Source of the DNA: Stakelama marina | GTDB taxonomy: Bacteria; Pseudomonadota; Alphaproteobacteria; Sphingomonadales; Sphingomonadaceae | DNA: 64,000 nucleotides | Assembly: GCF_018122655.1 (NCBI RefSeq) | Contig: NZ_JAGRQC010000003.1 | Location: 434,001 to 498,000 of the forward strand | Reading direction: 5' to 3' | Part shown: positions 31,025-36,042 of the stretch, in pieces | Layout of the letters: the number at the start of each line of letters is the position of its first letter | Position numbering within the stretch: the stretch's first letter is position 1 | Notes under the pieces: model-generated | The model's database searches: none | What the model saw: only the letters and a program-made list of their open reading frames with translations | What the model was told of the DNA's origin: nothing | Made by a program: the position numbers and the translations under genes

Positions 31025-32242
31025 TCAACCCCGCTTGCCTTGATCGAGCAGGCCGATGAAAAAGGCCGTAACCACCGTTTGAAGGCCGATGCAGCCGAGC
31101 AACATCGACGGTACCGTAAGTCGCATCAGTGCGAGCGGGTCCAGGTCACCAAATCCGGTGTGGGCCCAGAATGTCGTCGCCGCGATTGCGCCCCCGATAC
31201 CCGCAGCGAGCATCAGGCCGCCCCCAATACAGGCGCGCTCGACCGTGAACCAGTCGCGCACCCTGCGCATCAGACCGCTTTCCGGCCATAGCCCAACGAT
31301 TGTGCCATATCGGCGCGCGAGGAGCGATAGCCCGATGAGCTGTGATCCCATCAGCAGCGCCATCCCGAAGAAAATCATTGTGTGCACGCCAAATTGCACT
31401 TCTCCGAGTGTCACGTCCCCTGGGATAAGCCCGGCCACACCCACGAGGCCCGCAAAGGCGAGAGCGAGCCCAGGATAGAGCAGCAGGAATTTCGGCGCGT
31501 AGATCAAAAGGAAACGTAAATGCCGCCAGCCGTCGTGCCACGTCCTGAGATGCGGCGGACGACTGCGGCCATCAGGCTTGAGCGTCGTCGGTACCTCGCG
31601 AATATCGAGCTTCTCCAACGCCGCCTTGACCACCATCTCGCTGGCGAATTCCATCCCCGGGGAAGCCAAGCCGAGCGAAACGACCGCCTCGCGACGGAAT
31701 GCACGCAGCCCGCAGTGAAAATCGCCGACGCCGACTCCGAAAAAGATACGGCCCAGAAAGCTCAAAACCGGATTGCCCAAATAGCGGTGCAGTGCGGGCA
31801 TGGCCCCGGGCGCGATACCGCCCCGGAAGCGATTGCCCATCACCAGTTCTGCTCCATCGCGAAGCGCCTCGACAAAGGGCATCAACCCCCCGAAATCATA
31901 GCTGTCATCAGCATCGCCCATCGCGATATAGCGCCCCCGCGCCGCCGCGATCCCACCGATTAATGCCGCGCCATAGCCGCGATTTGCAACATGCACTATA
32001 CGCGCGCCGAACGCGATCGCAATCTGTTGCGACCCATCAGTCGACCCATTGTCGGCGACGATGATTTCCCCAGTAACACCGCTGTTGTCGAGAAAAGCGC
32101 GCGCGGTGCGCAGGCATAGTGCGAGTGTCTCCGCCTCATTCAGGCAGGGCATGACGATCGATAATTCGACCGTATTCGCCGCAGTTTTTTCAACGTCACG
32201 GGGGCCTGGCTCGGGCATGCGACGGACTTGGGCGACTGACAT
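31025..32242 (-). CDS. Membrane-anchored GT2, polyprenyl-phosphate sugar synthase-like
   Basis: A 405-residue protein. The N-terminal GT2 domain (about 25-240) shows LSIVMPCLNEAETLALC, ADNGSTDGSQQIA and the metal-binding GDADDSYDF. The C-terminal part has four hydrophobic helices (LLLYPGLALAFAGLVGVAG, MIFFGMALLMGSQLIGLSLL, GLMLAAGIGGAIAATTFW, LGCIGLQTVVTAFFIGLL). This is the layout of dolichyl/undecaprenyl-phosphate mannose or glucose synthases. Such enzymes make the lipid-linked donor used by GT-C enzymes, and a GT-C-like gene is directly divergent. AGGGG precedes the ATG at 32240-32242. The sugar and acceptor are unknown. Confidence 0.88.
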   Translation of the reverse strand: MSVAQVRRMPEPGPRDVEKTAANTVELSIVMPCLNEAETLALCLRTARAFLDNSGVTGEIIVADNGSTDGSQQIAIAFGARIVHVANRGYGAALIGGIAAARGRYIAMGDADDSYDFGGLMPFVEALRDGAELVMGNRFRGGIAPGAMPALHRYLGNPVLSFLGRIFFGVGVGDFHCGLRAFRREAVVSLGLASPGMEFASEMVVKAALEKLDIREVPTTLKPDGRSRPPHLRTWHDGWRHLRFLLIYAPKFLLLYPGLALAFAGLVGVAGLIPGDVTLGEVQFGVHTMIFFGMALLMGSQLIGLSLLARRYGTIVGLWPESGLMRRVRDWFTVERACIGGGLMLAAGIGGAIAATTFWAHTGFGDLDPLALMRLTVPSMLLGCIGLQTVVTAFFIGLLDQGKRG

Positions 32243-32350
32243 GGGACCCCTTGCAAGTAATTGTAGGTCCAGCTGGTCTATCGGACAGGCCCTAAAAAGA
32301 TGGTTAACCATTTTTGGTTAGCGGTCAGGTGACCTTTTGAGCGAGGGCAA

Positions 32351-34165
32351 ATGCGCAACGAAAAAGTTACCGTTTCTGGCCTGGTTCCGCGCAACCTTTG
32401 GCGGGATGCCATCGCCGCGCTTGCCATCGCGGCCTTGTTGATGACGATCTGGACAATCAGGGGCTGGCCTCAACTGGCCTTTCTGAACCTGCCGGACAAT
32501 GACGACATGATGCGGCTAGCACAGATTCGTGACTGGCTGGCAGGGCAGGGGTTCAACGACTGGACGCAATATCGGCTGGCGCCCCCGCTGGGTGCGCCTA
32601 TGCACTGGTCGCGAATCAACGACATCGTCCCGACGGGTATCATCGTTTTGACGCGGCCGTTGCTCGGCACTCACCACGCCGAATTGCTAGCCGTGATTTC
32701 CTATCCCGGTATGCTGTTCGGTATCTATCTCTTTCTTTCTGCTAGGATCGGCCGGCGGCTGGGTGGGGCGGCGGCCGGAACGGTCGCGCTGATCGTCGCG
32801 GCGATCGCATATCCAGCCGGCTCACTGTTCCTACCAGGCAGAATCGACCATCACGCCCTCCAGATCGTGCTCACCTTAGGCATCGTCCTTTCCCTCACAT
32901 GGCGGTCGTCACTTGCCAGCGGTGCGATAGCAGGAGCCGGAGTGGCCCTCAGTATGGGGATCGGGCTTGAAACTGCACCCCAAGTCGCCGCTGTTATGTT
33001 GACTCTCTTCGGCATGTGGGTGTGGCGAGGCAGTGAGGAGAAGGCGCGCGCCATCGGCTTCGGTGCGATGCTGGTCGCGGTGACAGGATTATTGCTCGCT
33101 TTTGCCCGGCCGACTTTGTGGACGACGCAGTGGTGCGACACTTTCACCCCGGCTTCGACCACCAGCACGCTGGCCGTCGGCGGCTATTGGCTGTTGCTTG
33201 GTTTTGCGGGTGTGCGGTTGAGGGGATGGCGGGCGCGCATTATCGCCGGTAGTGCGCTCGGTGCCGTTGCAGCCCTGGTGTTGGTTGGGCTGTACCCCAT
33301 TTGTCTGTCGGGCCCCTACGGTCCGATGGATCCTTTTGTCCGCCACGCCTTCATGGACAATGTGCTTGAGGCTCGGGGACTGTTCCACCAGGAACTGCTC
33401 GGCATCGCTATCCCCTCCGCCGGGATGATGGCGGCTTCGACCATCGCCGCGATTTGGTTCCTGTACCGCTTTCCTTGCCGACGGATTGTCGCATTACCGC
33501 TGATTGCGATTCTCGCGATGAGCGATCTCGTTCTGTTCGATCAAGTGCGCGGCGCCTATATCGGCAGCGCTGTCGCCGCGCCGCTGCTGGCGCAGATGAT
33601 CCTCGCCGCGCGTCGCGGCGGGCGGACGCCGCAGATCATAGCGAGTTGGCTGGCGTCGTGCGGTATGGTTTACCTGTTGGTGCCCGCCATCGCCGCAAAA
33701 GCGTTTGCTCCGCAAATTCGGGCGACTTATCTCGTCAACAAGGGCTGCAAATCGGGCGATGTCTGGCACCAACTCGACCGCTATCCGGCCGGCGTAGTGA
33801 TGGCGCCGATCGACATGGGCGCATACATCATCGGTGGGTCGCACCACGCATCGGTTGCGGCGGGCTATCACCGCAACAATCGGGGCAACCGCGCGATGTA
33901 CGAGTTCTTCCTGTCGCAACCCAAACAGGCGGAACGTATGGTCGCGCGCTGGCATGTCCGTTATATCGCGATCTGCCCGACCGATTTCCTCGAACTCGAC
34001 GTGCGCAATGCCTATCCCGACAGCCTCGCCGCTTTACTGCTGAGCGGTAATGTTCCAAGCTGGGTAGAGAGGCTGCCACTGCGCGATACCGGACTCGCCT
34101 TTTATCGCGTCCGCGAAGGCGCTGGAGCGAGTAAGCGTGCAGACATGGCAGAAACAGCTTTCTGA
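32351..34165 (+). CDS. STT3-like GT-C membrane glycosyltransferase (putative)
   Basis: A 604-residue polytopic protein with about 11-12 hydrophobic helices and a hydrophilic C-terminal part (about 450-600). The first outer loop carries LPDNDDMMRLAQIRDWL followed by APMHWSRIND, the acidic catalytic-loop style of GT-C enzymes such as STT3/PglB. FLPGRIDHHALQ later resembles the second conserved loop. Related alphaproteobacterial proteins are often left as hypothetical. The pairing with a lipid-sugar synthase gene supports a sugar transferase. The start at 32351 is convincing, but the acceptor is unknown. Base composition is slightly lower in GC than neighbouring genes in lines I counted. Confidence 0.72.
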   Translation: MRNEKVTVSGLVPRNLWRDAIAALAIAALLMTIWTIRGWPQLAFLNLPDNDDMMRLAQIRDWLAGQGFNDWTQYRLAPPLGAPMHWSRINDIVPTGIIVLTRPLLGTHHAELLAVISYPGMLFGIYLFLSARIGRRLGGAAAGTVALIVAAIAYPAGSLFLPGRIDHHALQIVLTLGIVLSLTWRSSLASGAIAGAGVALSMGIGLETAPQVAAVMLTLFGMWVWRGSEEKARAIGFGAMLVAVTGLLLAFARPTLWTTQWCDTFTPASTTSTLAVGGYWLLLGFAGVRLRGWRARIIAGSALGAVAALVLVGLYPICLSGPYGPMDPFVRHAFMDNVLEARGLFHQELLGIAIPSAGMMAASTIAAIWFLYRFPCRRIVALPLIAILAMSDLVLFDQVRGAYIGSAVAAPLLAQMILAARRGGRTPQIIASWLASCGMVYLLVPAIAAKAFAPQIRATYLVNKGCKSGDVWHQLDRYPAGVVMAPIDMGAYIIGGSHHASVAAGYHRNNRGNRAMYEFFLSQPKQAERMVARWHVRYIAICPTDFLELDVRNAYPDSLAALLLSGNVPSWVERLPLRDTGLAFYRVREGAGASKRADMAETAF

Positions 34166-34380
34166 CGAGCCATTGTACTGTGCGGACGCGCCGCATCTTC
34201 GTGCCGGTAGCGATCGCCGCCGCGCTCATCCTGCTGCTCTCGATGGCGCTGGGCTGGCATTATGCGGTCGACGGCATCGTCGGCGCGTCGGTCACGCTGG
34301 CCTGTTACCAGGGATTGCTGGCATTCTATCGCTCGCGTTCCGGCGCGAGGGAGCACGCGCCCGCGCTCGCACTGGGCTGA
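34166..34380 (+). pseudogene. Truncated PAP2-family phosphatase (3' fragment)
   Basis: A frame with only 66 codons from its first usable start (GTG at 34180). It encodes ALILLLSMALGWHYAVDGIV and then a helix, ending ALALG. The LGWHYAVDG segment matches the last catalytic motif (H...D) of PAP2/Aur1-like phosphatases. The other two catalytic motifs (KxxxxxxRP and PSxH) are absent because the frame begins only just after the GT-C gene stop (34165). I read this as the remnant of a longer gene whose 5' part was replaced by the upstream cassette. A small functional protein is the alternative. Confidence 0.6.
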
Positions 34381-34476
34381 GCCAGCTCCCGCTGGACCAA
34401 AAATGCGCCGAACCGCAGGGGATGGCGATGTGCTAGCGCTTGTACGCACGCACGCTGCTGCACTACAGCATCGCGG

Positions 34477-36042
34477 ATGCAGGGGTTGCGCGATCGACAG
34501 GCCCATTGGTGGCAGACACGGTGGTTCGTCGTGGCGATGGCGCTGGTCGCGGTCGTTCCGCTGATCTGGCCGACCATTCCGCCGCTCGTCGACCTGCCCG
34601 GCCATATGGGCCGGTACCGCGTGCAGGAATCATGGGACACCGCGCCCTGGCTGCACGAATGGTACAATTTTCACTGGCAGCTGATCGGCAATCTCGGGTT
34701 CGACCTGCTCATCATTCCGATGAGCAAGCTGTTCGGCATCGAACTAGGCGTGAAGCTGATCGTGATGACGATCCCCGCGCTGACCGCGATCGGCCTGCTG
34801 TGGATCGCGCGCGAGGTGCATGGGAGGATTCCCGCCACCGCGCTGTTCGCGCTGCCGATCGTGTACAGCTTTCCCTTCCATTTCGGCTTCGTCAATTTCG
34901 CGCTGTCGATGGCGCTGGCGCTCAATGCCTTCGCGCTGTGGCTGCGCATGGGCCGGCTGCACCGGGTGCGGCTGCGCGCGATCGTGTTCGTGCCGATTTC
35001 GGCGATCATCTGGGTGACGCACACCTATGGCTGGGGAACGCTGGGCGTGCTCGCCTTTTCGGGCGAGCTGGTCCGCCAGCACGATCTGCGCGGCGGCGGC
35101 TGGAAGGGTTGGATCACCGCCTGGATTCGCGCCGGCGTTCATTGTCTGGTGCTCGCGCCGCCCGCCGCGCTGATGATCCTGTGGCGATCGGGCGACCATG
35201 TTACCGGGCAGACGTTCGACTGGTTCAACTGGCGCGCCAAGATGCTGTGGGTGACCATGGTGCTGCGCGACCGGTGGCAGCTGTTCGACCTGGCGAGCCT
35301 GGCGGTGTTCTATCTGATCCTGTTCAAGGGGTTGCGCGATCCCAACATCCAGTATTCGCGCAACCTGACGCTGTCGGCGCTGTTCCTGCTCGCGGTTTAT
35401 CTGCTGCTGCCGCGGATCGTGTTCGGATCGGCCTATGCCGATATGCGGCTGGCGCCGTTCGTGTTCGGGATCGCGCTGATCGCGCTTCGGCCCAAGCCTG
35501 GCCTGTCGATCCGCCGCGCGAATGTGGTCGCGCTGCTGGGGCTCGCCTTCTTCCTGGTGCGCATCGGTGCCACGACCGCGAGCTTTTATCTGTACGACCA
35601 GCGCTATACCCGCGAGCTGGCGGCGCTCGACCATGTGCCCAAGGGCGCGCGGCTGCTGAGCTTTGTCGGGACGACGTGCCGTTACTATTGGAAGATGTCG
35701 CGCGTCGAGCACATGCCCGGCCTCGCGCTGGAGCGGCGGCTGGCCTTTTCGAACGACCAGTGGTCGATGGCGGGCGGGCAGCTGCTGACGGTGCGCTATG
35801 CCGCCGGGCGCGGGTTCAACCACGATCCGTCCGAACTCGTCACCTACCGCAAATGCCATGGCGAGATGTGGCGGCCGATCGACTGGGCGCTGCGCACCTT
35901 TCCGCGCGATGCGTTCGATTATCTGTGGCTGATCGGGCCGCCGCCTTATGATCCCGCGCTGCTGAAGGGCATGACGCCCGTCTGGCGCGACGGCACGAGC
36001 ATGGTGCTGCGCATCGACCATGACGCGAAGCCCAAGCGCTAA
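34477..36042 (+). CDS. Large polytopic membrane protein, GT-C-like
   Basis: A 521-residue protein with about 9-11 hydrophobic helices, then a soluble C-terminal part of about 130 residues. The first outer loop reads LVDLPGHMGRYRVQESW, with acidic and basic residues where GT-C enzymes hold their catalytic aspartate. No characterised family is recognised with confidence. It follows the PAP2 remnant on the same strand and converges with the FemAB-like gene, overlapping it by 4 bp. Its proximity to two other glycosyltransferase-like genes suggests surface-glycan work. Confidence 0.65.
   Translation: MQGLRDRQAHWWQTRWFVVAMALVAVVPLIWPTIPPLVDLPGHMGRYRVQESWDTAPWLHEWYNFHWQLIGNLGFDLLIIPMSKLFGIELGVKLIVMTIPALTAIGLLWIAREVHGRIPATALFALPIVYSFPFHFGFVNFALSMALALNAFALWLRMGRLHRVRLRAIVFVPISAIIWVTHTYGWGTLGVLAFSGELVRQHDLRGGGWKGWITAWIRAGVHCLVLAPPAALMILWRSGDHVTGQTFDWFNWRAKMLWVTMVLRDRWQLFDLASLAVFYLILFKGLRDPNIQYSRNLTLSALFLLAVYLLLPRIVFGSAYADMRLAPFVFGIALIALRPKPGLSIRRANVVALLGLAFFLVRIGATTASFYLYDQRYTRELAALDHVPKGARLLSFVGTTCRYYWKMSRVEHMPGLALERRLAFSNDQWSMAGGQLLTVRYAAGRGFNHDPSELVTYRKCHGEMWRPIDWALRTFPRDAFDYLWLIGPPPYDPALLKGMTPVWRDGTSMVLRIDHDAKPKR

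Follow-up and report, generated by a model that had tools for sequence, protein, structure and literature searches.

In AglB of A. fulgidus (AfAglB), a GT66 enzyme, the metal ligands are Asp47 from the first DXD motif and Asp161 and His163 from the second (Asp-His-His), with Glu360 of the TIXE motif contributing via a water molecule. The same source describes the pocket for the sequon Ser/Thr as formed by the WWDYG and DK/MI motifs and the donor as a monophosphate lipid (PMC8342417). In PglB, Arg375 contacts the lipid pyrophosphate (PMC7226087), and a proposal for both AglB and PglB has the Glu of loop 5 and the Asp of loop 1 acting on the acceptor Asn (PMC8342417, PMC7226087). According to the account in PMC6801728, no acidic residue of loop 5 seems to be completely conserved in DPY19. 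For Gram-positive GT-C enzymes of teichoic acids and other cell-wall polymers, the top HHpred structural homologues are given as AftD, ArnT, STT3, AglB and PglB (PMC8035078). Multi-component (Gtr) systems combine GtrA, GtrB and a GT-C protein, and those described with gene sets such as the ones reported below have polymer acceptors (PMC8035078, PMC11127046). We compared with these systems a locus of Stakelama marina that codes for a GT2 enzyme and two large GT-C proteins. It lies in a stretch of 64,000 nucleotides, referred to as the window, which is part of contig C8 of a 3.33 Mb genome.

Based on predicted folds, invariant motifs and gene linkage, we consider it probable that the best explanation of this locus is a periplasmic STT3/AglB-like transferase that uses a donor made by a GT2 enzyme and flipped by a GtrA protein, with the second GT-C protein as its partner. 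The locus is best read as a multi-component lipid-phosphate-sugar system of a known kind that is equipped with an AglB-like transferase, that is, as a putative periplasmic glycosylation system. An earlier note, made from the DNA letters, had proposed a glycosylation system of three genes. All three open reading frames (ORFs) are found in the window where the note had placed them, and the glycosylation reading is upheld by the sequence comparisons and models presented below.

31025..32311, minus strand: GT2 (P0001, 428 aa) of the polyprenyl-phosphate sugar synthase type, with a GT-A domain and four C-terminal membrane helices, as judged from Pfam, NCBIfam and PDB matches
32351..34165, plus strand: STT3/AglB-like GT-C protein (P0002, 604 aa), as judged from its model, Foldseek, VIA-align and a profile match to the AglB C-terminal domain
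34477..36042, plus strand: second GT-C protein (P0003, 521 aa), whose family is often linked to STT3-like genes, as judged from its model, GT-C fold matches and linkage

Conserved homologues of all three proteins, together with confident models of both large ones, rule out a chance or non-gene origin.

The fold of the 604-aa protein was predicted by AlphaFold2 using an 86-row alignment, and the model has high confidence scores (predicted local distance difference test, pLDDT, 93.7; predicted template modeling score, pTM, 0.93). In a Foldseek search against PDB, ranks 1–21 are all occupied by STT3, AglB, PglB or DPY19 chains (E from 4.7e-11 to 1.6e-7), followed by AftA (7.7e-5). VIA-align finds AglB (3wak) to be the best match (Z 24.4, root-mean-square deviation (rmsd) 3.6 over 542 residues), with the alignment extending over residues 12–590 and including the C-terminal domain; the C-terminal AglB domain alone (3vu0) is matched with Z 11.0 over 122 residues. 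Yeast and human STT3 score up to Z 21.9 (human oligosaccharyltransferase (OST) complex OST-B, Z 21.5, rmsd 4.1, 532 residues), DPY19 21.2 (4.7, 536), PglB 18.6 (4.8, 492), ArnT 17.3 (4.7, 440), Pmt 16.2 (4.5, 350) and EmbB 13.9 (4.7, 375). By these scores AglB ranks above the other GT-C families, and its C-terminal domain is covered. The fold also rules out an RND (resistance-nodulation-division) transporter, the identity implied by the name AcrB/AcrD/AcrF in public records.

Sequence profiles of the 604-aa family were built first from 25 homologues (alignment A1) and then from 86 rows (A3). Alignments A1 and A2 included all 25 and all 19 members of their homologue clusters, A3 and A4 took 85 of 86 and 46 of 50 matches passing a length filter, and A5 consisted of 39 of the 85 A3 matches, picked mainly outside the clade of the window protein. 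Where ORFs extended too far at the N-terminus, they were cut back by match position or by a motif rule. In the 86 rows of the family 16 positions are invariant, including D51, D52, R55, D166, H167, H168, E340, R400, H507 and R508. The motif positions are as follows.

32495..32515, plus strand: acidic motif DNDDMMR of the first outer loop, residues 49–55 (D51, D52 and R55 in 86/86 rows, D49 in 80/86)
32840..32854, plus strand: motif RIDHH of the second outer loop, residues 164–168 (D166-H167-H168 in 86/86 rows)
33368..33370, plus strand: Glu340 of loop 5 (N-V-x-E, similar to TIXE/SVSE; Glu in 86/86 rows)
33548..33550, plus strand: Arg400 ahead of the last helices, a candidate phosphate ligand (Arg in 86/86 rows)
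33812..33820, plus strand: Asp488-Gly490, aligned to A. fulgidus AglB at the place of WWDYG but without its two Trp residues (Asp in 75/86 rows, Gly in 71/86)
33869..33874, plus strand: His507-Arg508, a family signature in the C-terminal domain (86/86 rows)

The acidic loop that had drawn attention in the earlier note (DNDDMMRL) corresponds to residues 49–56, after helix 1, and the conservation of its acidic residues among homologues is nearly complete, so this part of the proposal stands. At the TIXE-like site of loop 5, Val or Ile is found two positions before Glu in 83 of 86 rows, while the first place is mostly taken by Asn, Arg, His or Lys and not by Thr/Ser. The place of WWDYG most often reads PLDLG or PIDMG and the Trp pair is gone. 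For this reason we do not file the family under GT66. Overall, the 604-aa family shares with AglB the fold including the C-terminal domain, the DHH of loop 2, the Glu of loop 5 and, in most members, the Asp and Gly of WWDYG. It differs in having only ~15% identity, no WW, mostly no Thr/Ser to open the TIXE-like motif and scores below family cut-offs, as well as in being found in Alphaproteobacteria and linked to genes for GT2, GtrA and a second GT-C protein.

Neither large protein is assigned to any Pfam family at a useful E-value. Searching PDB with the 86-row profile of the 604-aa family, we found the C-terminal domains of A. fulgidus AglB as the top two matches (3vgp, 8.5e-5; 3vu0, 0.0054). 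KcsA, which was the top PDB match of the 25-row profile (0.039, with AglB 3vgp at 0.1), fell to 0.17 with 86 rows and was discarded. With the NCBIfam profile archaeo_STT3 (TIGR04154), 20 of 40 family members give a match when E-values up to 1 are admitted (best 1.5e-9, 36.8 bits), and the match is colinear, residues 67–402 falling on profile positions 53–416 in the transmembrane half. When ten members were scanned singly, five passed 0.01; the 604-aa protein itself obtains 8.3 bits (E 0.63). The Pfam STT3 profile (PF02516) is weak across the family (2/25 members, best 0.0013; 1/40 members, 0.7), does not match the 604-aa protein itself at E 1 and finds nothing in the whole Stakelama genome at E 10. 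In 14 control genomes it produced matches in five (four archaea and Caulobacter vibrioides), 4/5 above cut-off. Membership in PMT_2 was rejected (2/40 members at E up to 1, best 0.001), and so was the NCBIfam LA_3751/LA_3752 putative glycosyltransferase family, as its matches (7/40, best 0.0041) are weaker than those of archaeo_STT3. The term 'STT3-like' used in the earlier note is therefore backed concordantly by the fold, the match to the AglB C-terminal domain and archaeo_STT3.

As judged from the fold and the order of residues along the chain, the active-site residues of the 604-aa family would occupy AglB-like spatial places, and we infer that Arg400 is equivalent to Arg375 of PglB. Since the DHH motif, the loop 5 Glu and the Arg are present in 86/86 rows but the two Trp residues are absent, the donor-binding and metal centre looks intact while the acceptor pocket looks changed. 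The 604-aa protein is likely to work by the STT3 mechanism. Facing the periplasm, it would use a polyprenyl-phosphate carrier as the source of a sugar or short glycan and attach this to an acceptor beyond the cytoplasmic membrane. The ligands of a divalent metal would be D51/D52 of loop 1, D166 and H168 of loop 2 and, via water, E340 of loop 5, with R400 holding the lipid phosphate and the C-terminal domain, having DLG in place of WWDYG, positioning the acceptor. The donor would most likely be a polyprenyl-monophosphate sugar made by a GT2, either that of the window or a GtrB/ArnC-type one near a sister locus on contig C7 (see below), and the GtrA protein of the sister locus may flip it. The 521-aa protein may belong to the same pathway as a further GT-C transferase, which would either attach another sugar or assist in acceptor binding.

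For the 521-aa protein the model is also confident (pLDDT 91.9), and its Foldseek matches under 0.001 are two, ArnT (4.2e-4) and PglB (6.8e-4). In VIA-align OST-A (Z 16.9, rmsd 5.5, 439 residues), ArnT (16.7, 5.1, 417), AftD (16.0, 6.4, 429) and Pmt4 (16.0, 4.7, 334) are close together, followed by many GT-C structures down to Z ~14, with no leader. Pfam profiles of GT-C families matched none of 19 members of the 521-aa family at E up to 1. By its model, the protein has a GT-C fold but no clear family. It could not be assigned to a single family such as ArnT/GT83 or Pmt/GT39, because none stands out by fold or by Pfam. With ArnT, Pmt and Emb-type enzymes it shares the GT-C fold and a C-terminal outer domain. 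Invariant positions of the family include D39, H43, D322 and R324, and the family is better conserved (61–72% identity in the first 27 of 46 rows) than the 604-aa family (37–49% in the first 29 of 85). The predicted models and fold matches of the two large proteins agree with the GT-C architecture ascribed to both of them in the earlier note, including the description of the 521-residue protein as GT-C-like.

GT2 of the window matches Pfam Glycos_transf_2 (PF00535) at 1.2e-26. It carries a DAD motif (residue 133), and its C-terminal part has four hydrophobic stretches within residues 275–422. Its best NCBIfam profile is AglJ (TIGR04182, 2.1e-29), yet the score of 102.8 bits is far from the cut-off of 325. 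Its best relatives in PDB are ArnC (3.6e-11) and DPM synthase (2.7e-10); sll0501, which we take to be GtrB, is matched as well. By similarity to these proteins, GT2 would be a membrane GT-A enzyme that charges polyprenyl phosphate, and the four-helix C-terminal layout, predicted from the letters before, agrees with the hydrophobic stretches and these matches. The epithet 'divergent' is apt for the orientation of the gene but not for its sequence, which is ordinary: relatives among the records of a plasmid collection reach 56% identity in Nonomuraea and 46% on Citrobacter plasmids. The gene is widely shared (162 records of this collection at 1e-5), whereas at 1e-40 matches occur in 10 of 149 genomes of the same bacterial family. 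Because of this patchiness we regard GT2 as a gene that probably moved between lineages. In the Ruegeria and Natrinema records it stands alone among unrelated genes, and the flanks shown hold no other glycosylation genes. On the Citrobacter braakii plasmid pKAM621_3 (L180:3757-7164) GtrA, a 627-aa membrane protein and GT2 (46%) form an operon with transposases nearby, possibly a mobile surface-glycan module. The 627-aa protein had no Pfam match at 0.01, and the STT3-like and 521-aa profiles were not among its matches listed.

The arrangement of these genes in other genomes was studied in the best 80 of 545 relatives found in a genome scan. These loci lean to near kin (62 from Sphingomonadales, 36 of them from Sphingomonas). 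The 58 loci with full flanks were used for counting neighbours; the profiles were built from members found in the same loci, so that known members are counted by construction. Genes of the 521-aa family are present within 4 kb in 28 loci and at 5–9 kb in none. The corresponding figures are 24 and 0 for GtrA, 12 and 1 for GT2 and 3 and 0 for EamA-like proteins; six loci have no GT2, flippase candidate or 521-aa gene within 4 kb. From the other side, a 521-aa homologue lies within 5 kb of a 604-aa homologue in 34 of the 42 genomes that carry the 521-aa family.

A tree of the 604-aa family (110 rows, quick search, with Shimodaira–Hasegawa-like approximate likelihood ratio test (SH-aLRT) values as the sole support) places the window protein in a clade of 33 rows (SH-aLRT 100), mostly located beside argG and a 521-aa gene. 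Many members of another clade of 28 rows are found beside GtrA and many of a further one of 30 rows beside a flavin adenine dinucleotide (FAD) oxidoreductase; adjacency of the 521-aa gene to 604-aa homologues is not confined to a single clade. All 23 full-flank loci of the window's clade have a 521-aa gene within 4 kb and three have a GT2; the 35 loci outside it have a 521-aa gene in 5, GT2 in 9 and a GtrA/EamA-like small transporter in 26 cases. Of the loci examined, just three (the window, L082 and L083) have an STT3-like gene of this clade next to the window GT2 or a close relative of it, and in S. naasensis (L082) the order of the GT2, STT3-like and 521-aa genes is that of the window. Outside the clade, GT2s that belong to this cluster but are more distant were found no further than 190 bp from an STT3-like gene in nine loci. 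Eight of these are divergent as in the window (Rhizobium, Pseudorhizobium, Metarhizobium, Salaquimonas, Nitratireductor and Henriciella) and have a GtrA/EamA-like transporter close by; in Dongia the GT2 is on the other side of the STT3-like gene. Orthology between the window GT2 and the GtrB/ArnC-like GT2 of the common locus is not supported: in a BLAST search of 20 neighbourhoods at 1e-6 it matched, besides itself, one ORF (L076, 28% identity). In this ORF (L076:9836-11005, 389 aa) GT2 is joined to what, by eye, we take to be a GtrA-like membrane part.

The Stakelama genome has a paralogue of the 604-aa protein (31% identity) in the sister locus on contig C7 (L062), next to GtrA and a methyltransferase, and a GT2 of the usual kind (GtrB/ArnC-type) is 5.4 kb from the methyltransferase. 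The genes on the other side are presumably MarC, FolD and YggT, and the gene we call argG was likewise named by its sequence; argG and GNAT agree with a public record. In L064 and L075 argG, the 521-aa gene, GT2, the methyltransferase, the STT3-like gene, MarC and FolD are contiguous, in L075 together with GtrA. From this gene order it seems that the Stakelama genome split one ancestral locus in two. With Gtr systems these loci share a polyprenyl-phosphate-type GT2, a GtrA-type flippase candidate and a GT-C protein encoded in one locus in many relatives; they differ by a transferase with AglB-type motifs and C-terminal domain and by a second GT-C protein, and in the Stakelama genome GtrA is on another contig.

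Side by side with these arrangements, L109:11692-16457 has a tandem of three 521-aa homologues following a single STT3-like gene, and several loci, e.g. L104 and L092, have two; this suggests duplication of the 521-aa gene, possibly for several sugars. A GT87-like protein is encoded between argG and the 521-aa homologue at L063:7650-8852, L066:12212-13426 and L184:4698-5894, as though this family could change partners.

Several observations weigh against the proposed periplasmic transferase system. No member of the 604-aa family has an established activity, the members are far under the curated TIGR04154 cut-off (450 bits) and mostly have no PF02516 match. Kinship with OST alone does not name the acceptor, as polymer-decorating GT-C enzymes show the same homologues in PMC8035078. 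Pairing of the large proteins is not fixed, since the GT87-like protein replaces the STT3-like gene beside the 521-aa homologue in three loci, and the methyltransferase is hardly enriched (6/58 within 4 kb vs 4/58 at 5–9 kb). Within the window's clade a single full-flank locus out of 23 has a GtrA or EamA-like gene within 4 kb, and a scan of the window (350 ORFs of at least 60 aa, 0.01) gave no match to a profile of either kind; the Wzx type was not searched. The earlier view of the three genes as one unit thus holds for the linkage of the 521-aa and STT3-like genes, but is weakened by the lack of a flippase profile match and by the fact that within the clade GT2 pairing is confined to the window, L082 and L083. 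Likewise, the supply of a lipid-linked sugar and its transfer to an envelope acceptor are in keeping with the type of GT2 and with the GT-C folds, but GT2 pairing is rare, and transfer to the envelope is what we infer.

The question of the acceptor separates three alternatives. The nearest to an even chance is that the STT3-like protein is the transferase of a Gtr-like system, placing single sugars onto an envelope polysaccharide or glycolipid. GT2, GtrA/EamA-like flippase candidates and the STT3-like gene stand side by side in many loci, and the polymer-decorating enzymes have OST among their structural homologues (PMC8035078). However, the lipid-modifying ArnT is below AglB in fold (17.3 vs 24.4), and the AglB-type DHH, loop 5 Glu and C-terminal match seem to go beyond a general GT-C likeness. 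Less likely is a true protein glycosyltransferase, an alphaproteobacterial enzyme of AglB type whose pocket no longer reads N-X-S/T and which puts sugar on secreted proteins, at Asn or at a different side chain. The closest fold is that of AglB including the acceptor-binding C-terminal domain, and the loop 5 Glu, for which action on the acceptor Asn has been proposed, is invariant in 86/86 rows. On the other hand, the Trp pair responsible for binding the +2 Ser/Thr is missing from the aligned place, an acceptor protein is known for none of the members, and the OST structures, being top homologues of polymer-decorating enzymes too (PMC8035078), do not discriminate. A bolder extension, widespread alphaproteobacterial protein glycosylation of AglB type with a pocket devoid of WW, fed by GT2/GtrA, helped by a second GT-C protein and acting on secreted or outer-membrane proteins outside N-X-S/T, is speculative and still less probable. 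Very improbable is a DPY19-like C-mannosyltransferase, which would combine an STT3-type fold with a polyprenyl-phosphate monosaccharide and modify tryptophan. DPY19 does match the fold (Z 21.2, 536 residues), a monosaccharide-phosphate donor is possible in both, and DPM synthase is among the PDB relatives of GT2; but the loop 5 Glu is invariant in the 604-aa family while DPY19 seems to lack a completely conserved acid there (PMC6801728), AglB is better in fold, and the AglB C-terminal domain aligns by sequence.

A different kind of alternative is that the three genes are not one system, GT2 having been transferred beside an older pair of STT3-like and 521-aa genes to serve another pathway. We regard this as a serious contender, if somewhat short of even. 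It would fit the presence of GT2 (1e-40) in 10/149 family genomes vs 102/149 for the STT3-like family (0.001), the close GT2 relatives in an actinobacterium and on plasmids, the Ruegeria and Natrinema GT2s, whose flanks as shown hold no further glycosylation genes, and the three loci with GT2 pairing within the clade. Against it speak nine loci outside the clade in which a more distant GT2 of the same cluster has an STT3-like gene as its neighbour at 190 bp or less, in eight of them divergently.

Among 149 genomes of the same family, 102 carry a homologue of the 604-aa protein and 42 carry one of the 521-aa protein (E up to 0.001, own genome counted). Across the class the 604-aa family was found in 34 of 240 drawn genomes and across the phylum in 36 of 249, with 31 of these belonging to the class and two of the other five being partial near-threshold matches. 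In the open-licence literature we recognised no account of an STT3-like protein in sphingomonads or Alphaproteobacteria. If the proposed transferase system is real, the spread of the 604-aa family either extends the range of such glycosylation or represents the STT3 fold turned to another acceptor in bacteria. The family is also a testable example, provided by nature, of an STT3-type active site whose sequon pocket is altered. Matches to the family were found in five plasmid records, which call its members 'hypothetical protein' or 'AcrB/AcrD/AcrF family protein', the latter being the name given to the member on an S. parapaucimobilis plasmid (L183:5920-7689). Because of such names the family is easily missed.

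The 604-aa and 521-aa genes are separated by 311 bp, which contain one more feature that does not belong to the system:

34189..34380, plus strand: C-terminal fragment of a PAP2-type gene (Pfam PAP2_3, 4.1e-6)

A search of the own genome with the DNA of this fragment returned itself and two matches of 30–34 bases, with no full copy. In the S. naasensis locus (L082) the corresponding gap between the two large ORFs as called is 58 bp. The fragment was probably left behind by an insertion or deletion.

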